Origin: a virus
Reading direction: 5' to 3' (one strand)
Virus record (IMG/VR): IMGVR_UViG_3300034198_025411
Location: 1-23,132 of that record
DNA: 23,132 nucleotides
Part shown: in pieces, positions 8,654 to 21,917 of the stretch
Numbering within the stretch: the first letter of the stretch is position 1
Layout: each line of letters begins with the position of its first letter
Notes under the pieces: generated by a model
Database searches by the model: none
Seen by the model: the letters and a program-made list of their open reading frames with translations, nothing else
Told to the model about the DNA's origin: nothing
Translations under genes and position numbers: made by a program

Positions 8654-11251
8654 TTACTCGGCGCCCTTGATGCCCATGCGGCGGGCGATGTCGCTCTCGA
8701 CCTTGTCGATGGTCGTCGTCGGAGCGACCTCGTGGCGGTCACCGAGACCCGAGATGCCTCGGCCGGCGGAAGCCGGACGAGCCTCGCTCAGGATCTGCTC
8801 GGCGTATGCCTTCTCGGCCTCGATCAGCTCGTTGACCTTGGCCTCAGCGGCCTCGCGGTCGAGCGTGTGATCCTCGGCGAGGATGGGCTCGACGATGCTC
8901 GCGCGAACGCGGTCAGCGGCGGCGGTCGGCAGCTCGGCGGCCGTGAGGGCCTCGGTCACCAGCACGTCCTGCTCGGCCTTGGCGGCCTGCTCGGCGGCCT
9001 CGACCAGCTTGGCGTCGCGCTCGGCGATCTCGGCCTCCAGCTCGGCGACGCGAGTGGCGAGCTCCTCGACGCGACCGTTGTCGGCCTCGAGAACCTCGAT
9101 GATGTCAGGGCGCTGCTCGCGCAGCGTGGTGACCGCGTCGGTCACCGTCATGGTGTTGAGCACGTTGATCTCCAGCTCCTTGGCTCGTGCGGGTTGATAG
9201 GACTCCCAGATGGCATCGACGCGGCCACCGGCACCAGGCTCGGTGACCCAGTCGACGCTGAGAGCTCGGGTGAAGCGCTCGACCACGTCGGTCAAGCGAC
9301 CGTCGACCTTCTTGCGCTGGACCTGGCCCTGCGCGAAGATCGAAAGGCCGACGTCAGGCAGGGCATCGTTCTCCTGCAACTGCTTCAGAAAGTCTCCGAA
9401 CCAGTTCTGCACGATCTTGATGCGCGCCTGCGCGGCGCCGGTCTGAGGGTCGATCCAGGTCTCCTTGATGGTGGAGACCCAGTCCGTCAGGCTGCGCTCG
9501 GGCCGATCTCGCATCTCGCTGGCCGAAGCGTGGTTGACGAACATCTTGCGCCCGTCGAACATGCCGTTGTTGATCGCCTCGGCGATGGCATCGGACGGGT
9601 AGTAGCGCGAACCCGAGCGGTTGAGCCCAGGAGTGATGATCGTGACGACCATCTCGTTCTTGTTGAGCACGGAGTCCGAGGACGGGTTGATCGCCTCGGC
9701 GAAGTCCTGCTCGTTGGAAGTGATCTCGTTTGGCACATCGGAAAGTGTACCAACAGATTCGCTCATCTTGCTAGCTCCAGTGCCGATGGGGGTGCCGAGC
9801 ACCTTGTGAGCCTTGCGGATCACCTTGGCTCGCTCCGCGGCGGTCAGGTCAGAACGGTGGACGTACGACAGGGCGGCACGAGCGTGGGCCTTGTCGGGAA
9901 TGGGGAACTTGTACTCCTTCGCGCCGCTAGGCAGCGTGCGAACGACGGTGGCGTGACGCTTGCGCATCGAGGCGGAGAGGCCCTCCGCCAGCGCGAGCTC
10001 GAGATCGCTGCCCTCCGCGAGGTGCGCGGGCATCTTCTCGCCGCTGGTGTGCACCGACTTCCAGGCGGCGGCGACCTTGCTGCGCACAGCCGCGACCTCA
10101 CCCTTGGGCAGCTGCACCTGGTTGCCGCGGAACCCGCTGGGGCTCAGCGCCATGGCGGCGCGAGCGATCGAGGCGCGCGTGACCTTCTTGGAGGGGTCCT
10201 CCCAGAGGCGCATCTTCCAGGTCGAGGGCTTCTGTGGGTCAGGAACGTAGGCGTAGGCGGACGCGGGGAACCTCATTCCCATGTCGGTCTTGTATACGCC
10301 GTCGGCCTCCGCGACGTCCTCGCTCTGGATGCCCAGCGACGCGCGTAGCTGCCAGGCCCACTTCTGGTGCATGTCGATGCGCTCGGCGAGGAAGTTGGCG
10401 ATGCCCTGCTGATTCTCAGCCGTAGCCTGATCGAAGATGGCCATCAGCTGCACCAGCACGAAGTCGTTGATGCTGAGCACCATCTGAGCCAGCGACGACT
10501 CGCCGTCGGCGGGGTCAGCGGGGTCCTGCAGCGTGCGGATCGCCACGAGGTCTGTCATCGAGTACGGCGTGTCGTAGCCCAGCTTGAGCATGAACTCGGC
10601 GATCGTGTCGATGGAGTCGAAGACGTCCTCGTAGATCTCGCCAAATAGCTCGTGGTACTGCGCGAAGTCCTGTCCCTTGACCGTCCAGTGCGCGCCGTGC
10701 GTCAGGTGGTACATGGTCACCACGTTGGCCAACAGCTCGGGGAGCTGCTGAATCAGAGGTCGGCCGTCGGTGGCCTCAGAGATGTCCATGGAGTCCTCGA
10801 TGTGAAAGATAGTAGCGTGTGTGCCATCGTCTACCTCAGCCGTCGGGCGCTCGGAGCTAGCGCGAGGATGGTTGAGCGGCAGAAGATCGTTGTCGGTGAC
10901 GTACTTAGTGTTTTCGGGCGAGCCGTGGTTCAGTAGATACAGGAAGGCGTTGACGCGTCCCATCGCCCACTGGTTGCGAGTCATGCCGGGCCGATGGCTG
11001 GTGGAGAAGGCGCCGGCGCCGCGTCGGTACACCGCCTTGAGAGCGGCGAGGGTCGTGCGGTACTTGCCGCCGGAGTTGTGCTCGGCCACCTTGGCCCGCA
11101 GCGCCTTGGTGACCTCTGGCGTGAAGGTAACGGCTTGTCCGTTTGACGCAGAACCTCGGGGGTTGCGCTTGGAACCATGGACTCGCTCGCTGGGCTTTGC
11201 AGGAGTAGACTTTCGCTCGCCCTTCGCCTCGATGTAGATCTCGTCGGTCAC
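8654..11251 (-). CDS. Capsid assembly polyprotein: Dps-like domain, prohead protease-like domain and scaffold
   Basis: This 865-residue protein joins several parts. Residues about 40-125 are a helical region of a type found in phage head polyproteins (KYRTTLAALKAVYRRGAGAF...MGRVNAFLYLL). Residues about 166-308 resemble a Dps/ferritin-like four-helix domain: THGAHWTVKGQDFAQYHELF, then EDVFDSIDTIAEFML (His188, His200, Asp215 and Glu219 match the usual ferroxidase pattern), and a closing helix FLAERIDMHQKWAWQLRASL. Residues about 370-490 hold two short helical motifs seen in phage capsid proteins. Residues about 530-690 look like a maturation protease, with candidate His574 (VNHAS) and Ser637 (VGLSI). 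Residues 705-825 are a charged coiled coil, as in scaffolds. The start is a GTG at 11249-11251 that overlaps the upstream stop as GTGA. The catalytic residues are by-eye assignments. Confidence 0.8.
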   Translation of the reverse strand: MTDEIYIEAKGERKSTPAKPSERVHGSKRNPRGSASNGQAVTFTPEVTKALRAKVAEHNSGGKYRTTLAALKAVYRRGAGAFSTSHRPGMTRNQWAMGRVNAFLYLLNHGSPENTKYVTDNDLLPLNHPRASSERPTAEVDDGTHATIFHIEDSMDISEATDGRPLIQQLPELLANVVTMYHLTHGAHWTVKGQDFAQYHELFGEIYEDVFDSIDTIAEFMLKLGYDTPYSMTDLVAIRTLQDPADPADGESSLAQMVLSINDFVLVQLMAIFDQATAENQQGIANFLAERIDMHQKWAWQLRASLGIQSEDVAEADGVYKTDMGMRFPASAYAYVPDPQKPSTWKMRLWEDPSKKVTRASIARAAMALSPSGFRGNQVQLPKGEVAAVRSKVAAAWKSVHTSGEKMPAHLAEGSDLELALAEGLSASMRKRHATVVRTLPSGAKEYKFPIPDKAHARAALSYVHRSDLTAAERAKVIRKAHKVLGTPIGTGASKMSESVGTLSDVPNEITSNEQDFAEAINPSSDSVLNKNEMVVTIITPGLNRSGSRYYPSDAIAEAINNGMFDGRKMFVNHASASEMRDRPERSLTDWVSTIKETWIDPQTGAAQARIKIVQNWFGDFLKQLQENDALPDVGLSIFAQGQVQRKKVDGRLTDVVERFTRALSVDWVTEPGAGGRVDAIWESYQPARAKELEINVLNTMTVTDAVTTLREQRPDIIEVLEADNGRVEELATRVAELEAEIAERDAKLVEAAEQAAKAEQDVLVTEALTAAELPTAAADRVRASIVEPILAEDHTLDREAAEAKVNELIEAEKAYAEQILSEARPASAGRGISGLGDRHEVAPTTTIDKVESDIARRMGIKGAE

Positions 11252-12255
11252 TGTGCGAGCTGATCTTCGGGAATCACCCACAACTTGCAGATGCCCTCGG
11301 GGTCGATCTGTCCGGCGACGACCTCGCACGCTCCGGCCTCGAAGAACTCGCAGTGCTGGCACACGAGTCCCTCCGCCTTGAAGGGATTTTTGTCACCCGG
11401 CGCGTAGTGAGCTCCGTCGGCACTCGTGCCCTGATCGTACTGCCCAAACTCCTCGACGACGTCCTCGGTGCTGTGGATCTGAGCGATCTGGCGATCGTTG
11501 TAGCGCGAGTAGTCCTCGCCGTCCTCCTGCGGACCGTCGTTCATCATCAACTCGAGCGGGTCGATGCCGGCGTCCTCGGAGACGGCCCCGTGCCCGTCCT
11601 CGTACGTGGACGCGGCGGCCTGCTCAGCCTGGTCTTCCGCGGCGTCGATCTGCATCACGCGGCGCAGCATGTCCGTGAGCTGCTGGGCCATGGCGTCGAA
11701 CTGCGCTGCGTTCTCGGCATCTCCGTTGGCGGTTGCCTCGTCTGCCATCGACTGCGCTACGGAGCGGGCCGCGGTGGCGATCATCTGAAACTCATCGCTG
11801 CCGTCGGCGTGGTCCTCGGTCAACGTGGTGTAGGGAGCCAGATCGCTGAGGATCACCTCGAGCATCTGAGCCTCGGTCTCGTCGAGCAGCAGGTCGTAGT
11901 CCGTCTGCTCGATCGTCATGGTGTGCTGCTCGCGCATGGGGTTGTCCTTGAGTTGTCGGGCTACCTTGGCCGACCAGGAGGCGCCGGGATCTCCGCCCCA
12001 TGCCATCCAGGCGACGTAGCCAGGTGTTTCGCTACCCGCCTTGCCCCAGTCGGGCTTGCGGTCAACTGCGTGTCGAGAAAAGAAGGAGTGCATGCGCTTG
12101 ACGTGCGCGGGCGTGAGGCGCTCGCCGTTGGCGATCTTGTGCGCTCGCTCGAGCGTCGCTGGCATAAAGCCGTCGCCGGCCTTGCCAGCCTGCACGAGCG
12201 CGATGCCACGCTTGGCAGCAGCGCGTACGCCAGCTGGGGGAACTAGATCTGCCAT
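11248..12255 (-). CDS. Head-module protein with C-terminal four-cysteine motif, 335 aa
   Basis: Residues 1-103 (VPPAGVRAAAKRGIALVQAG..., then RLTPAHVKRMHSFFSRHAVDR..., WMAWGGDPGASW) form a helical domain that recurs in phage capsid-protease polyproteins. The middle (about 110-285) is acidic and helical (EDQAEQAAASTYEDGHG), probably flexible. The last 40 residues contain Cys299, Cys302, Cys310 and Cys323 in a C-x2-C...C...C arrangement followed by LW, a pattern like small high-potential iron-sulfur or zinc modules found in some phage head proteins. Its ATG overlaps the upstream TGA (TGATG) and its stop overlaps the next start (GTGA). It was possibly once part of the downstream polyprotein. Exact role unknown. 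Confidence 0.75.
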   Translation of the reverse strand: MADLVPPAGVRAAAKRGIALVQAGKAGDGFMPATLERAHKIANGERLTPAHVKRMHSFFSRHAVDRKPDWGKAGSETPGYVAWMAWGGDPGASWSAKVARQLKDNPMREQHTMTIEQTDYDLLLDETEAQMLEVILSDLAPYTTLTEDHADGSDEFQMIATAARSVAQSMADEATANGDAENAAQFDAMAQQLTDMLRRVMQIDAAEDQAEQAAASTYEDGHGAVSEDAGIDPLELMMNDGPQEDGEDYSRYNDRQIAQIHSTEDVVEEFGQYDQGTSADGAHYAPGDKNPFKAEGLVCQHCEFFEAGACEVVAGQIDPEGICKLWVIPEDQLAQ

Positions 12256-16552: not shown

Positions 16553-16759
16553 CTATAGGCTAGCATGGGGTTTTGGTAGCCAGGCGGTAACGACGAAGGC
16601 GATCGACCCGTTGGCCGTCACAGAGCGCCTAGGAGCTCCTACTCGAGGGTACCTAGAGCGCAGATCATCCTGCGCTATGCCAAAAGAGGCATAGGTCTTG
16701 CCCTCCATCGCCCACGCCCCTCCGTGGTATTCGATCACCACGTCGACGCTAGAGGTCAC
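16553..16759 (-). CDS. Small protein of unknown function, 68 aa
   Basis: The GTG start has GGAGGGAG about 8 nt upstream and overlaps the end of the ParB-like paralogue by 11 nt, supporting a coupled gene. The protein is compact, with VDVVIEYHGGAWAMEGKTYASF and an FVVTAWLP strand, suggesting a small alpha/beta or beta fold. I recognise no family. It belongs to the same transcript as its neighbours. Confidence 0.6.
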   Translation of the reverse strand: MTSSVDVVIEYHGGAWAMEGKTYASFGIAQDDLRSRYPRVGAPRRSVTANGSIAFVVTAWLPKPHASL

Positions 16760-17303
16760 GCTTGCTCTCCCTCCACTCGTGAGCCAGAGACGAGAGCCAG
16801 TCCGGGTTAGCCTTCTCCTGTAGTAGGGCCTGATGAGCCCAGGAAGCGCCGGCGTAGAACCCCCTGAGCAGAGCCTGCTCCTCGCTCGTCATCTTGCTGC
16901 GCTGCTTCATCGATCTAATGACGGGCAGGCTGCTGATCGGAGCAGGATGGCCCTTCTTCCGCATCTCTACGATCTCCAGAGCAGCCGCAGCCCTGAGTCT
17001 TCCGGCCGATACCTCGTTGCGTAGATCCTCCATCTCAGGTGGCGCGAGTTCGCGCGCTACCTGCACCCGACGATAGAAGGTCCTGCGGGCCTGGTTGGTT
17101 GACTTAGCCAGGGCGTTCATCGAGATGTTGCCACCTCTTCCGGCTTGCAGTAGCGCGATCAGGCGGGCGTTGAGAACGCCCGCCGAGTAGTCATCCAGCT
17201 TTCTGGTTCGCAGAGCCAGCAAGATCGTCTCTAACTCTTGCCTGCGCTCTTCGTCACCCAACTGTTCCAGTAGATGCTGGTCGCCTGGTTCTTTATCTTT
17301 CAT
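16749..17303 (-). CDS. Truncated ParB-like DNA-binding protein lacking the N-terminal ParB domain
   Basis: The protein (184 residues from the ATG at 17301-17303) shares with the full ParB-like protein at 21082-21861 the linker R-x-LDDYSAG-x-x-N and a helix-turn-helix region ending TF-x-RRV-x-x-A-x-LA, then R-x-x-x-x-x-G (residues about 34-112). The N-terminal nuclease/CTPase-like domain is absent and replaced by about 30 charged residues. The C-terminal third (113-184) is unique. A longer start at a TTG (17331-17333) is possible, but the ATG is preferred. It may bind the same DNA sites as its paralogue and modulate it; this is inference from shared sequence and from the shared upstream site at 17523-17554. 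Confidence 0.75.
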   Translation of the reverse strand: MKDKEPGDQHLLEQLGDEERRQELETILLALRTRKLDDYSAGVLNARLIALLQAGRGGNISMNALAKSTNQARRTFYRRVQVARELAPPEMEDLRNEVSAGRLRAAAALEIVEMRKKGHPAPISSLPVIRSMKQRSKMTSEEQALLRGFYAGASWAHQALLQEKANPDWLSSLAHEWRESKRDL

Positions 17304-17433
17304 AAAAGTATGGTATCCCTCTCTATTTTTCAATATCTCAAAAAAACTACGACTACTTAGAACTTCTCATCTCTCTATAGGGGTAACGCGCGCGCGATAA
17401 CAGAACTACACTAGGTTGTCCACGGCTTTTGAC

Positions 17434-17522: not shown

Positions 17523-17554
17523 TGCCAGCGTGGCACAAGTGCCATCATGGCACA
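17523..17554. promoter_or_regulatory. Tandem TGCCA-N3-TGGCA site, copy 1
   Basis: Two palindromes TGCCA-N3-TGGCA (17523-17535 and 17540-17552) are spaced 17 bp centre to centre, each followed by CA. The 32-bp block matches the one at 21932-21963 at 29 positions. It overlaps the stop codon of the CmoA-like gene and lies upstream of the truncated ParB-like gene. Because each ParB-like gene has such a block upstream, it is a candidate binding site for these proteins. Confidence 0.65.
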
Positions 17555-18282
17555 AGGTCGTTTCTCACAACCCAAACTCCCCAGTTGTACCAGCGGTAAG
17601 CCTCGAGGGGCGTACCCCATCCAGCGATCTCAAGCTGGCGCTTGAGATCGCCCGCTGTTCCGGGTCGCAGCACTCCTCTCAGGGCCCTAGCCTTGAGGCG
17701 GATGTCCTCTGCGTCTACGCCGTGCTGGGCCTTGTGGTCCCAGGTAGCCTCGTTCGCAATCTCCTGCCAGATGCCGGTGTCCAGTTCGATCTTCTCGGCT
17801 ACGATCAGCACTCCGGTCTCCGGCCTGCTTGCTTCGCGCATGGCGCGAAGCAAGCGCACCCGCTGGTGGGTAGGAACGAACTGCAGCGTAAACAGACACA
17901 GCGTGAGGTCCGCGGACGAGTGCTCTGCGTTCTCGAACACCAGATCGTTGGTGGATCCGTAGAAGGAGTGCGTGGTCTCCATGCCCTGAAACTTGAGCTG
18001 CGCGGCGTCAAGCATCGGCTGCTCTACGTCGTAGAGAAAGAAGTCCAGATGACGCTGGGGATGTCGATCAGCGATCATCTTCACCGTGGTTCCGGTAGCC
18101 GCCCCTACGTCGGCCACGATGCCGTGAGCCGGAGCGAACCAGTCGCTGAGGTGCACCACGAGCTCCTGAATCAACTGGTAGTTCGGGACGTGCACGCTGA
18201 CGTGCCCGTCGAAGGCCTCGACCACCTCGGGCGTAAAGGCCCACGCGCCGGAGTCGAAGTTCTTACTTACGTCGTCGCTCAT
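17545..18282 (-). CDS. CmoA-like SAM-dependent enzyme (candidate carboxy-SAM synthase)
   Basis: The 245-residue class I methyltransferase-fold protein aligns by eye along its whole length with E. coli CmoA (247 residues), which converts SAM and prephenate to carboxy-SAM. Shared points: W-x-F...V...F at 14-24, VP-x-Y (32-35), motif I DVGAATG (58-64), an acidic residue at 85 (LYD), FTLQF (131-135), EK (163-164), K184...G188, I194-x-x-K197 and L-x-x-AG (217-221). CmoA's Arg199, reported to hold the carboxylate of carboxy-SAM, appears to be Ala in my alignment, but the next residue is Arg (KAR at 197-199), so the exact register matters. A plain methyltransferase is the alternative. AAGGAGGT precedes the ATG. 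The gene directly follows the DNA cytosine methyltransferase. Confidence 0.8.
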   Translation of the reverse strand: MSDDVSKNFDSGAWAFTPEVVEAFDGHVSVHVPNYQLIQELVVHLSDWFAPAHGIVADVGAATGTTVKMIADRHPQRHLDFFLYDVEQPMLDAAQLKFQGMETTHSFYGSTNDLVFENAEHSSADLTLCLFTLQFVPTHQRVRLLRAMREASRPETGVLIVAEKIELDTGIWQEIANEATWDHKAQHGVDAEDIRLKARALRGVLRPGTAGDLKRQLEIAGWGTPLEAYRWYNWGVWVVRNDLVP

Positions 18283-18300
18283 CCTTACCTCCTTACTTCC

Positions 18301-19365
18301 TTACCTGCACTTGTCGAGCACTTCGGCCCGAAGGGTGTCCGCTACGGCCTTCATCATCAGCGGCGGCACCGATCGTCCCAGCCGCTCGCACCGCTGAGCG
18401 AAGGTACCGGTCAGCTCGAAGTCCTCGGGGAACGACGAGAGCAGCCGCAGTTCCCTGAGGTTGAACTTGCGCTTCTGCGACGGATGGCACACCGACGCCA
18501 TGCCCGTGTTGCCGATCATGGCCGTGATGGTGCCGACCGGGCGATCGACGTCGGGTCGGCACAGCTGAAAGTACTTATCGGACTTGCCGCCCATGGGCGT
18601 TCTCTCCCACTCGCGAGAGACCGCTCGACCGAGGGCCGTGCTCTCGCCCGTCTCGGCGTCCACGTACTCCTCCCGCTCCAGCACGTCGGGCAGAGCGTCC
18701 AGGAGCGTGAGCTGGGTGGAGAAGGGCTGCGGGTGCACCGGGGAGACGCCGTAGCGTTCGACGAGGTCGTTGCGTACTCCCACGAAGATGAGGCGGTTGC
18801 GCGCCTGCGGCACTCCGAGCCAGGATGCGTCCAGCATCCTGGCGCTCACCGCGTAGCCGCACCCCTTGAGCTCGGCCAGGATCTCCTTGAAGTATCCCTT
18901 CGCCTTGCCGGTGACGAGGCCGCTGACGTTCTCGGCCACGAAGGTCTTGGGCTGGAGGTCGCGGAGGATGCGCGAGTACTCGAAGAACAGATCGTCGGTT
19001 CGCTGCTTGGTATCGGAGTAGTCCTTCACCTTGCCCCAGCCCTCGGAGCGCTTTCCCGCGGTAGAGAAGGAGGCGCAGGGAGGAGAGCCCTCGAAGACGT
19101 CGACCTCGCGATGACCCACCACGCGCTGGATGTCGCTCGCCTGTACCTCGCGCACGTCACGATCGTCGAGGTAGACCCCGTCGTGGTTGAGGGCGTAGGT
19201 CGCTCGCGCCTCGGGCACGAACTCGAGCGCGTATCGCACGTCGTAGCCCGCCATCTCGAAGCCGAGGCACGACCCGCCGCACCCCGAGAAGGTAGAGACG
19301 ACCGTGTAGCCGTTGCTACCACGGATCGCTCGCACGTCGCCCATGCTCGGCAGGGAGTAGGTCAC
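18301..19365 (-). CDS. DNA cytosine-C5 methyltransferase with Arg in motif X
   Basis: The 354-residue protein has the C5 motifs in order: I, STFSGCGG (24-31); IV, GSPPCASFS with catalytic Cys97; VI, AENV (144-147); VIII, QARNRLIF (187-194); a target-recognition region at about 205-295; IX, LRELRLLSSFP (303-313); and X, LGRSVPP (329-335). In motif X the family normally has GNSV or GNAV; here Asn is Arg331 (codon 18373-18375). The GTG start at 19363-19365 overlaps the upstream stop as GTGA; a GTG six codons further upstream is possible. Normal activity would be cytosine methylation of phage DNA. With a CmoA-like neighbour and the Arg change, carboxymethyl transfer from carboxy-SAM is a real alternative. 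Confidence 0.93.
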   Translation of the reverse strand: MTYSLPSMGDVRAIRGSNGYTVVSTFSGCGGSCLGFEMAGYDVRYALEFVPEARATYALNHDGVYLDDRDVREVQASDIQRVVGHREVDVFEGSPPCASFSTAGKRSEGWGKVKDYSDTKQRTDDLFFEYSRILRDLQPKTFVAENVSGLVTGKAKGYFKEILAELKGCGYAVSARMLDASWLGVPQARNRLIFVGVRNDLVERYGVSPVHPQPFSTQLTLLDALPDVLEREEYVDAETGESTALGRAVSREWERTPMGGKSDKYFQLCRPDVDRPVGTITAMIGNTGMASVCHPSQKRKFNLRELRLLSSFPEDFELTGTFAQRCERLGRSVPPLMMKAVADTLRAEVLDKCR

Positions 19366-19478
19366 GGCTTCTTGCCCTTCCACCAGCTGATGAATGCCTC
19401 GATGGCGGCGGCTCCGATGCCGATCACCAGCACCACCTCCAGAAAGAACGCGGCCGCTCGGGCCCTCTCGTTGTTCAC
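19362..19478 (-). CDS. 38-residue membrane peptide in the modification operon
   Basis: A GTG start with AAGGAG 6 nt upstream leads a 38-codon frame encoding one hydrophobic segment (about 10-32) flanked by NNERAR and WWKGKK, which predicts a single-pass membrane peptide with a basic C-terminus. It is tightly packed: 3 nt after the amidotransferase stop and overlapping the methyltransferase start by GTGA. The function is unknown; it may serve mainly to couple translation, or have a separate membrane role. Confidence 0.6.
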   Translation of the reverse strand: MNNERARAAAFFLEVVLVIGIGAAAIEAFISWWKGKKP

Positions 19479-19481
19479 CTC

Positions 19482-20864
19482 TTACTCCTTTGGCAGAAAG
19501 CCGAAGAGCTCGCGAGCCTCGGCGTTGTAGTGCTTGGTGGGGGAGTTGATGAAGTCTCCCACGGCGGCGGCGATGCCCGTGCCGCCCTGAAAGGTGTCCT
19601 TCTTGCGGCGAATCACGTAGGCCGGCAACCCACGCCGGTACGCGGCTGCCTTGAGCACCTTCTTGCCGGGCGGGTTGCTCGCCTTCGTCGAGGCCAGCGC
19701 CGCGGCCACGAGTCCCTCCTCCATAAAGGGCAAGCGCCCCTCCACTCCGGCGGCCATCATCACCTTGTTCACGCGCACGAAGTTGCCGCGCGACATCTTG
19801 TCGACGGCCCGTCGGATGACCTCCTGGTACTCGACATCACTCTGCGCTCGCCCCGCCGCCATCATCATGTTGCCGTAGCCGCAGAACAGCTCGTCGGCCG
19901 CCTCGCCCGACAGGGCCACGCGGTAACCGTCGGAGGCGACGGCACGCATCAGAGGCAGGTGCGCCATGGCGATCTCCACCTGGGCCTTCATGGGCACCTC
20001 TACGGCGGCCACCGCGTCGGCGATCAACCGCGGGGTGGGCCGCGGGACCTGCACCTCCACCAGGGGGACGTCGAGCTCCAGCGCGACGCGCCTCGCCATG
20101 GCTAGGTCGTCTGACTGGGTGTCGTACACGGCCGTGTAGGCCACGGGCTCGGGGTGCAGCTCCTTGGCCAGGGATAGGACGAGCGAGGAGTCGAGGCCCC
20201 CCGAGAGCAGAAAGCAGACGGGGCGGTCGGAGATCAGCCGCTTACGCACGCCCTCGCGTAGCATGGCTAGGACGCCCTCTGGCTCGCACGGTGGTGCCAC
20301 GACGCCCGCGTCCCATCGCACGACCTCGCCCGTGGCGAGCCGCACGGCGCAGCCAGGCGGCACGGCCTTCGGCCGCACTCCCCACGAGAGGTCGAACGCC
20401 TTGAGCTCGGACGCGAAGACGTAGCCCCCGTCGTGCTCGGCGTAGTAGAGGGGGATCTTCCCGTACCGGTCACGGGCGAGCCACGCTCCGTCGCGTCCCT
20501 GCCACGCCATCGCGAACATGCCGTCAATCAGCCGAAGGCACGCTATTCCGACCTGGTCCAATAACCTAGCGATCGGCTCCGTATCCGAGGAACTCGTCCA
20601 GGGGAGGGAGTTTTGGTCGGGGGTAGCCTCCCGACGGAGCTCCTCCGGGTTCCACGCCTCTCCGTTGTACGCCAGGGTGACGTCCCCGTACCGGAAGGGC
20701 TGGGAGGCTGACCCCGAGGTATCCTGGATGGCTAGCCGGACGTGCCCCAGGAGAAGATCACTGGAGCGGCATGTGCCGCGCCCATCTGGTCCCCTGTGGG
20801 AGATTCGATCGAGCATGGCATCTACGTCTATCTCACAACGAAAGCTACCGGCGATACCGCACAT
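19482..20864 (-). CDS. AsnB-type glutamine-dependent amidotransferase
   Basis: The mature-type start MCGIAG exposes Cys2, the nucleophile of class II glutaminases. Other glutaminase residues are visible: Arg43 (HVRLAI), YNGE (66-69) and SSDTE (92-96). The synthetase half has the PP-loop SGGLDSS (221-227), LSGEAADELFCGY (318-330) and RRKKDTFQGGTG (419-430). Members ligate ammonia to an AMP-activated carboxylate, usually aspartate. At 460 residues it is shorter than E. coli AsnB (554). It overlaps the upstream zinc-ribbon gene as TGATG, so an N-terminal extension is not expected. Location among DNA-modification genes suggests that its substrate might be a carboxylated nucleobase, but asparagine synthesis or another ligase role cannot be excluded. 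Confidence 0.9.
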   Translation of the reverse strand: MCGIAGSFRCEIDVDAMLDRISHRGPDGRGTCRSSDLLLGHVRLAIQDTSGSASQPFRYGDVTLAYNGEAWNPEELRREATPDQNSLPWTSSSDTEPIARLLDQVGIACLRLIDGMFAMAWQGRDGAWLARDRYGKIPLYYAEHDGGYVFASELKAFDLSWGVRPKAVPPGCAVRLATGEVVRWDAGVVAPPCEPEGVLAMLREGVRKRLISDRPVCFLLSGGLDSSLVLSLAKELHPEPVAYTAVYDTQSDDLAMARRVALELDVPLVEVQVPRPTPRLIADAVAAVEVPMKAQVEIAMAHLPLMRAVASDGYRVALSGEAADELFCGYGNMMMAAGRAQSDVEYQEVIRRAVDKMSRGNFVRVNKVMMAAGVEGRLPFMEEGLVAAALASTKASNPPGKKVLKAAAYRRGLPAYVIRRKKDTFQGGTGIAAAVGDFINSPTKHYNAEARELFGFLPKE

Positions 20865-21085
20865 CAGCGCTTCCACTCGTGCTGGCAATCGGGGCAACGC
20901 CAAGCGACGGTGCGATCGAGGTGCCAGTCGTAGATCGCCTGCACTCGACTGAAGTGGTTGGGCTTCTTGCAGTCGCGGCAGGTCTTGGGATACCATCCCA
21001 TCTGAACGGAGAGCTGTGGGATGTCCCGTCCCACGAAGCTAGCGCTGCAGCTAGGGCAGGAGTGGGGGAGGATCTCGTGGTTCAC
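20864..21085 (-). CDS. Small zinc-ribbon protein, 73 aa
   Basis: Three C-x2-C pairs (Cys10/13, Cys36/39, Cys64/67) suggest one or more zinc knuckles. The last pair, WRCPDCQHEW, closely resembles YRCPKCQYEW at the C-terminus of the ParB-like protein encoded just upstream. The GTG start at 21083-21085 overlaps the upstream stop as GTGA; longer GTG starts exist but lack this coupling. A DNA-binding or scaffold role for the modification genes is plausible; no known family is certain. Confidence 0.7.
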   Translation of the reverse strand: MNHEILPHSCPSCSASFVGRDIPQLSVQMGWYPKTCRDCKKPNHFSRVQAIYDWHLDRTVAWRCPDCQHEWKR

Positions 21086-21861
21086 CGCGGAGTGCCGCTC
21101 CACTCGTACTGGCACTTGGGGCAGCGGTACTCGGTCTTGATGTCCTCGTCGAACTCCTTGAAAACCGGCGGCTTTGCAGGCTCGGCGGAGGGGGCGGTGT
21201 CCTCGCCCTCGAGGCCCACGTCCTGCCCGTCGGTCTCGGGACCGCCCTGCCAGCCGACCTTGAGCTCGCGCGGCTCGAGCACGGCTGCCTCGGGAAGGGT
21301 TTCGATGCTCTCGTCGTCCTCGGGGCCAGCGACCTGGTGCAGGGCCTCCCGCGTGGAGATCTGCCCGGCGACGAGCTGCTCGCGCACCTCGGTGTGCTCC
21401 TCCTCGGCGAGGAGCTTGGCGAGGGCCACGCGACGCTGGAACGTGCGGAGGGACTGGCCCGCGAGCGCGGCGATCTCCGACGTGGTCTTCTGACCCACCG
21501 GTCGGCGACCCGGGCGCGACTCGATGCCGTAGAGCTCGAGGAGCTTGAGGTTCATCTGACCGGCCGAGTAGTCATCGAGCTGACGGCGCTGGGCGTTGAG
21601 CCCGATGGCGTCGATCATCTCCTCGTCGGTGAGCTCCTGCCCGACCCCCGACGCGTCGTCGTAGTACTTGGTGGTGGTCGGCATGTCGAGGCCGAGCTCG
21701 GCGGCGATGGTCGACCGGTAGTGGCCGTCGATGACGCGGCCGTGCTGGTTGAGCAGCACCGGCACCATGACGCCGTGTTCCCGGATCGATTCTCGCAGCG
21801 CTACGAGCTGCTCAGCGCTGAGCGGCGCCATGGGGTTGGGTCCGAGGGTGGTGGGCTCCAC
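21082..21861 (-). CDS. ParB-like nuclease/DNA-binding protein
   Basis: Residues about 14-90 have the ParB/Srx fold signature (PLSAEQLVALRESIREHG, PVLL, VIDGHYRSTIAAELGL). Residues about 93-177 hold the linker and helix-turn-helix (QLDDYSAG, AALAGQSLRTFQRRVALAKLL). The C-terminus is acidic and Pro-rich and ends with a half zinc ribbon (Cys247, Cys250). The GTG start at 21859-21861 is chosen because the promoter -10 lies at 21889-21894, so the longer ATG at 21895-21897 would be upstream of the transcript; AAGGAG lies 8 nt before the GTG. A hairpin (21864-21869 with 21881-21886) overlaps this ribosome site. Phage ParB-like proteins often accompany DNA methyltransferases. It probably binds the nearby tandem palindromes; inference. 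Confidence 0.85.
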   Translation of the reverse strand: MEPTTLGPNPMAPLSAEQLVALRESIREHGVMVPVLLNQHGRVIDGHYRSTIAAELGLDMPTTTKYYDDASGVGQELTDEEMIDAIGLNAQRRQLDDYSAGQMNLKLLELYGIESRPGRRPVGQKTTSEIAALAGQSLRTFQRRVALAKLLAEEEHTEVREQLVAGQISTREALHQVAGPEDDESIETLPEAAVLEPRELKVGWQGGPETDGQDVGLEGEDTAPSAEPAKPPVFKEFDEDIKTEYRCPKCQYEWSGTPR

Positions 21862-21888
21862 GTGGTCTCTCCTTCTTCGGGAGACCGC

Positions 21889-21917
21889 AGCATACATGCC
21901 CTACAGGGGCGTGTCAA
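21889..21917 (-). promoter_or_regulatory. Sigma70-type promoter of the modification operon
   Basis: On the minus strand, TTGACA (21912-21917, perfect -35) is followed after exactly 17 bp by TATGCT (21889-21894). The start of transcription would be near 21882, leaving a leader of about 20 nt with the AAGGAG of the ParB-like gene. The tandem palindrome block lies 14 bp upstream of the -35. Confidence 0.8.

Follow-up and report, generated by a model that had tools for sequence, protein, structure and literature searches.

The question raised by the virus record IMGVR_UViG_3300034198_025411, which belongs to an uncultured high-GC phage and whose 23,132 bases (the window analysed here) hold tailed-phage portal, terminase and capsid genes, is what an operon combining an AsnB-type amidotransferase, a cytosine C5 DNA enzyme and a CmoA-like protein does to the phage DNA. 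The four frames named by the first-pass annotation (the amidotransferase, a small peptide, the C5 enzyme and the CmoA-like protein) were found at 17545-20864 on the minus strand, and the content, order and coupling of the genes, the motifs and folds of their products and the co-occurrence of the genes were all shown here. We conclude that the genes most likely form a CmoA-CmoX-CmoY operon for the hypermodification of phage DNA, ending in 5-carbamoylmethylcytosine.

The first-pass annotation had put forward that the CmoA-like protein makes carboxy-S-adenosylmethionine (Cx-SAM), that the C5 enzyme uses it to form 5-carboxymethylcytosine (5cxmC) and that the AsnB-like enzyme amidates this to 5-carbamoylmethylcytosine. 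The carboxymethylation is not novel: for homologues from Synechococcus phage S-B43, Yang et al. have already published biochemical and structural proof of it as well as evidence from virion DNA (Nat Commun, December 2025; PMC12783734). The S-B43 phage CmoA produces Cx-SAM, and the wild-type C5 enzyme, SpCmoX, accepts only Cx-SAM and yields 5cxmC at GC (PMC12783734). In the crystal structure of SpCmoX with Cx-SAM (8YF3), Arg350, which corresponds to Asn304 in M.HhaI, holds the carboxylate, and the R350N variant is inactive (PMC12783734). The AsnB-related CmoY of S-B43 then couples glycine to 5cxmC; the glycine amide was detected in virion DNA, and HhaI was blocked by 5cxmC (PMC12783734). Work on homologues thus demonstrates how Cx-SAM and 5cxmC are made, what the arginine does, and that a shorter ligase forms an amide with glycine. 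A survey of phages counted 5,615 CmoX, 4,257 CmoA, 2,251 ligase and 1,660 ParBc genes, and the second-largest ligase cluster (A0A7T0Q3R0) bears a glutaminase domain, for which ammonia use was predicted (PMC12783734). In our searches of the literature, neither this system nor 5-carbamoylmethylcytosine in DNA was described anywhere else.

As had been claimed, an arginine replaces the motif X asparagine in the C5 enzyme of the window (Arg337 in ERLGRSVPP), which also carries a GSPPC nucleophile motif with C103. In the alignment, F32, E54, F55, D76, S100-P-P-C103 and R337 correspond to F25, E47, F48, D69, SPPC98 and R350 of SpCmoX, and both S100-P-P-C103 and R337 are invariant in 14 aligned CmoX members. 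The structure 8YF3 is the top PDB relative by sequence (phmmer E=4.2e-65) and ranks first in Foldseek (E=2.2e-30) for the CmoX model, whose predicted local distance difference test score (pLDDT) is 90.1. The carboxymethyl interpretation is therefore supported both by the published chemistry of the homologues and by the fact that the window CmoX keeps every named cofactor contact.

The association of the genes was followed in 80 viral loci with a glutaminase-type ligase, 80 cellular AsnB loci and 74 independent CmoX loci (L104-L177). CmoX was present in 78 of the viral ligase loci, CmoA in 77 and both in 75, the remaining five being cut by contig ends or incomplete; CmoX or CmoA was found in 0/80 of the cellular loci. 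Given 75/80 against 0/80, the association is not due to chance, and the co-occurrence that the first-pass annotation had named as a check is borne out. The independent CmoX loci contained CmoA in 65/74, a ParB-like gene in 65/74 and a recognised ligase in 25/74.

The state of the motif X residue follows CmoA. In CmoX-like genes of viral contigs, arginine stands at this position in 160/160 sequences with CmoA in the fetched locus, a count that retains near-duplicates and comprises 156 sequences identified by pattern, three read from printed tails (L090, L102 and L120) and L017. Five CmoX-like sequences have asparagine instead (L152, L153, L165, L169 and L170), and CmoA was found in 0/5 of their whole records, which are fragments of 4.0-16.9 kb; this absence is suggestive support for the link between the arginine and CmoA. 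Seven Arg-type CmoX lack CmoA in the fetched locus (L150, L042, L101, L085, L146, L167 and L172), and a CmoA, or part of one, lies at the end of the whole records of L150, L042 and L101. In a tree of 91 CmoX sequences, asparagine appears separately on three branches nested among Arg-type sequences, as would be expected if enzymes went back from transferring carboxymethyl to transferring plain methyl once the Cx-SAM supply was lost. From their sequences, the five Asn-type enzymes are candidate reversions to plain methylation.

The CmoA-like protein of the window scores 79 bits with TIGR00740 (E=3.7e-22), for which the curated cut-off is 193. In E. coli CmoA, Arg199 is the sole residue touching the Cx-SAM carboxylate (PMC4482062); this column holds Ala198 in the window and Glu in the proven S-B43 CmoA, and both have an arginine four residues, or one helical turn, further on (Arg202 in the window). 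Because the cut-off is missed and Ala198 stands at the Arg199 column, the protein is classed as a phage-type CmoA and not as the bacterial equivalog; Arg199 was dropped as a membership criterion since it is absent from the proven S-B43 CmoA as well. The gene comes directly after cmoX, behind a strong Shine-Dalgarno sequence, aaggaggtaagg. No gene of the 23-kb record, itself a fragment, was seen to encode a CmoB partner, in agreement with the earlier annotation. Scanning viral contigs with CmoA as a single protein gave nothing confirmable, and profile searches succeeded. As a separate observation, Gordonia phage Evaa (OP434461; L002, 702-3952) encodes a clear homologue of the window CmoA, at 43% identity, and the whole phage gave no CmoX match; ParB-like genes lie nearby, one of them a 511-amino-acid ParB-N 'methyltransferase', and Cx-SAM may serve another modification in this phage.

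The amidotransferase combines a glutaminase domain with an Asn_synthase domain, and its AlphaFold model (pLDDT 93.7) has E. coli AsnB (1CT9) as the top fold match, with a template modelling score of 0.87; the beta-lactam synthetase fold also matches. The N-terminal Cys nucleophile and glutamine-binding residues of class II (N-terminal nucleophile) amidotransferases are present, C2, R43, N67 and D94 aligning to C1, R49, N74 and D98 of E. coli AsnB. The synthetase half has the SGGLDS loop (S221-S226), E321, D324 and K422 where E. coli AsnB has SGGLDS, E348, D351 and K449, which together with the AsnB fold places the enzyme among ligases of the AsnB superfamily that form adenosine monophosphate (AMP). 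It is not an ordinary asparagine synthetase: it scores 250.2 bits with TIGR01536 against a cut-off of 267.1, and K293-AQV-E297 stands where cellular AsnB has TT[IV]RA (TTIR in E. coli). We take TT[IV]RA to be part of the AsnB aspartate site. KAQ[VI]E occurs in 80/80 sampled viral ligases, a sample partly fetched by the pattern KAQ[VI]EI and therefore inflating this count, and in 0/85 cellular AsnB, and the viral set keeps the glutaminase and adenylation residues.

A KxxxEC motif occupies the corresponding place in 20/26 glycine-type CmoYs. As the Lys and Glu are kept in both ligase types, the motif goes with the 5cxmC substrate and not with the amine, and we infer that its Glu may read the cytosine amino group. 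The glycine-type enzymes have neither the glutaminase domain nor residues equivalent to K422 and E321, while the glutaminase type shows no variation at C2, R43 and D94 across 39-40 diverse members. Since the glutaminase and the residues for ammonia use separate the two types, ammonia, and hence 5-carbamoylmethylcytosine, is favoured. Amidation to this base is the best current reading of the window ligase and agrees with what has been predicted in print for its cluster (PMC12783734). An apparent fusion of CmoX and ligase in L017 (6819-9404, 861 amino acids) was not used as proof of a shared substrate, since a frameshift lies near the CmoX end and the other frame encodes a normal CmoX end (PPLMMCHLASAIRDQVL...stop); the frameshift is either a sequencing error or real.

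Considering these results, we propose the following model as likely. CmoA would convert S-adenosylmethionine and prephenate to Cx-SAM; CmoX would flip out the cytosine, its Cys103 attacking C6, and the carboxymethyl group would be moved to C5 while Arg337 grips the carboxylate of the cofactor. The AsnB-type ligase would then adenylate the 5cxmC carboxylate with adenosine triphosphate, and ammonia freed from glutamine by the N-terminal glutaminase would be the nucleophile that attacks the adenylate, giving the neutral 5-carbamoylmethylcytosine. The ParB-like/zinc-ribbon protein probably aids the transferase on DNA, and the modified base, expected in the DNA of this phage, would block host restriction. 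Taken jointly, it is likely that 5-carbamoylmethylcytosine, a primary-amide base, is formed by an amidotransferase that depends on glutamine and works on a base in DNA, that an Arg-to-Glu exchange (R324 to E297, with K293) retargets the pocket from aspartate to 5cxmC, and that ligases with several different specificities are swapped as cartridges on a CmoA-CmoX core.

Several points weigh against this model. The motif contrast draws on the partly pattern-fetched sample described above; the CmoA match lies under the equivalog cut-off and lacks the E. coli Arg199, as does the proven S-B43 CmoA; CmoA could lie beyond the ends of the fragmentary Asn-type records; and the glutaminase-cluster ligase was insoluble in the published attempt (PMC12783734). 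In addition, 49/74 of the other CmoX loci show no recognised ligase nearby, and 5cxmC may be the end product in some of them, unless it is processed further by other enzymes or by ligases of an unknown kind. These loci favour an alternative in which 5cxmC is also the final base made by the window operon and the amidotransferase acts on a protein or metabolite. We give this only a slim chance, as the window ligase lies inside the coupled operon, its type neighbours CmoX in nearly every viral locus sampled, and its asparagine synthetase motif has been lost and replaced by one common to the proven DNA ligase family.

A closer competitor keeps the same core pathway but has the ligase join an amino acid or another amine, the glutaminase being vestigial or a backup source of ammonia. 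Beta-lactam synthetase, whose fold matches the window ligase model, has lost glutaminase function. Across the CmoX tree the ligase label switches 37 times, a figure partly inflated by truncated contigs, suggesting from sequence comparison that ligase types are often exchanged. Glycine is, moreover, the demonstrated amine of the S-B43 CmoY (PMC12783734). Against these arguments stand the invariance of C2, R43 and D94 and the retention of K422 and E321 of ammonia-using AsnB, which the glycine-type enzymes lack together with the domain, and we regard the use of another amine as improbable. Another possibility, an ordinary phage 5-methylcytosine methyltransferase beside unrelated metabolic genes, with no carboxymethylation, would agree with Pfam and NCBIfam, which report only generic C5 methylase and methyltransferase domains. 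It is scarcely credible in view of the strong co-occurrence of CmoX, CmoA and ligase, of Arg337 in all CmoA-linked relatives with Asn in relatives without CmoA, and of the exclusive use of Cx-SAM by SpCmoX and the inactivity of its R350N variant (PMC12783734).

The features of the operon are listed in Table 1. The first-pass annotation was right that its four frames form a tightly coupled operon, but it missed two upstream genes, those of the ParB-like and the small zinc-ribbon proteins. The coupled starts it described are present, with a TGATG overlap between the zinc-ribbon gene and the ligase and GTGA overlaps between ParB and zinc ribbon and between peptide and C5 enzyme. For cmoX, GTG at 19365 is more likely to be the start than 19383, and an alternative start at 21115 is possible for the small zinc-ribbon frame, which has weak DUF7838/DUF7479 matches below the cut-off. 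The small peptide lies between the ligase and C5 genes, with its single hydrophobic stretch, and was not found as a conserved gene of the cassette.

Table 1. Coordinates and supporting evidence for the genes of the window operon.
Feature	Position	Strand	Evidence
cmoA-like carboxy-SAM synthase, 245 aa	17545..18282	-	TIGR00740 E=3.7e-22 (below curated cut-off); phrog_4752 E=7.5e-46
cmoX, cytosine C5-carboxymethyltransferase (putative)	18301..19383	-	PF00145 E=1.2e-54; nearest solved relative 8YF3
38-aa peptide, one hydrophobic stretch, VNNERARAAAFFLEVVLVIGIGAAAIEAFISWWKGKKP	19362..19478	-	open frame; AGGAG upstream; stop overlaps cmoX start
Glutaminase-type amide ligase (AsnB-type CmoY), 460 aa	19482..20864	-	PF13522 E=1e-28; PF00733 E=2.2e-43
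Small double zinc-ribbon protein	about 20864..21085	-	CPSC...CRDC...CPDC in translation; TGATG overlap with ligase start
ParB-like protein, C-terminal zinc ribbon EFDEDIKTEYRCPKCQYEWSG	21082..21897	-	phrog_4715 ParB-like E=9.5e-11

The ParB-like gene, the first of the operon, is a member of the usual cassette set. Its zinc-ribbon tail, with the pattern E.DEDI.TE..CP.C.YEWSG, is found in 128/146 ParB-like genes beside CmoX. A part for ParB and the zinc ribbon in the carboxymethyl chemistry was rejected; they also adjoin Asn-type CmoX without CmoA, and so accompany the transferase family, not Cx-SAM. Downstream of the operon, a protein of 194 amino acids (16749-17333) has an LDDYSAG...N..L..L segment and following region in common with the ParB-like protein, and its sequence suggests a paralogue that derives from ParB but lacks the N-terminal domain. 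Elsewhere in the window, a single frame of 902 amino acids (8654-11362) combines a head maturation protease with an unknown domain and, at residues 199-343, a match to a PHROG DNA-binding protein, which is an unusual domain mix for the capsid-protease position. A nucleotide search of the 12-23 kb part of the window against known phages gave zero matches. In a check for avoidance of GC dinucleotides or restriction sites, the GC dinucleotide was not depleted in the window (observed/expected 1.03).

This work extends a recently described DNA-modification system to an uncultured phage and draws attention to its glutaminase-type ligase branch. The pathway itself is already known; new here are the contrast between KAQ[VI]E and TT[IV]RA and the correlation of Arg or Asn with CmoA. 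The latter switch offers a simple sequence rule for telling carboxymethyl- from methyltransferases in metagenomes, and KAQ[VI]E / KxxxEC a rule for calling the ligases. If the model is true, the glutamine-made DNA amide would count as a new base, one that could serve well in DNA labelling.

Among known systems, that of S-B43 shares with the window an adjacent CmoA, an Arg-type CmoX with conserved cofactor contacts and an AMP-forming amide ligase, at about 38% identity for CmoX and about 27% for CmoA. Its ligase, however, has 271 amino acids, no glutaminase and adds glycine, whereas the two-domain window ligase of 460 is predicted to use glutamine-derived ammonia; the gene order also differs, a ParB-like/zinc-ribbon gene leading the window operon. 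The ligase of the A0A7T0Q3R0 cluster is of the same glutaminase type as that of the window (PMC12783734). E. coli AsnB has the same two-domain fold and the same glutaminase and adenylation residues, but is only about 26% identical, has TTIR in place of KAQVE and is longer (554 against 460 amino acids), the window C-terminus being shorter. For CmoX, a parallel is provided by M.MpeI N374K, as cited in PMC12783734, in which the corresponding place in motif X holds a basic residue that enables Cx-SAM use; that lysine is engineered in an enzyme of CG specificity, while the window has a natural arginine and SpCmoX acts at GC. Achromobacter phage Motura (L022, 7950-9230) carries an AsnB-like glutaminase gene beside a transglycosylase in a 7-deazaguanine DNA-modification cluster, another case of an amidotransferase recruited into phage DNA modification; the base chemistry is different (DpdA/QueC/QueE) and the similarity to the window ligase is weak and limited to 140 residues. 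The closest set among isolated phages is that of Streptomyces phage TurkishDelight, whose genes 121-125 encode two ParB-like proteins, CmoX, the ligase and CmoA (gp125), with identities of 50% for CmoX, 38% for the ligase and 48% for CmoA, and which differs from the window only by sequence divergence and gene order.

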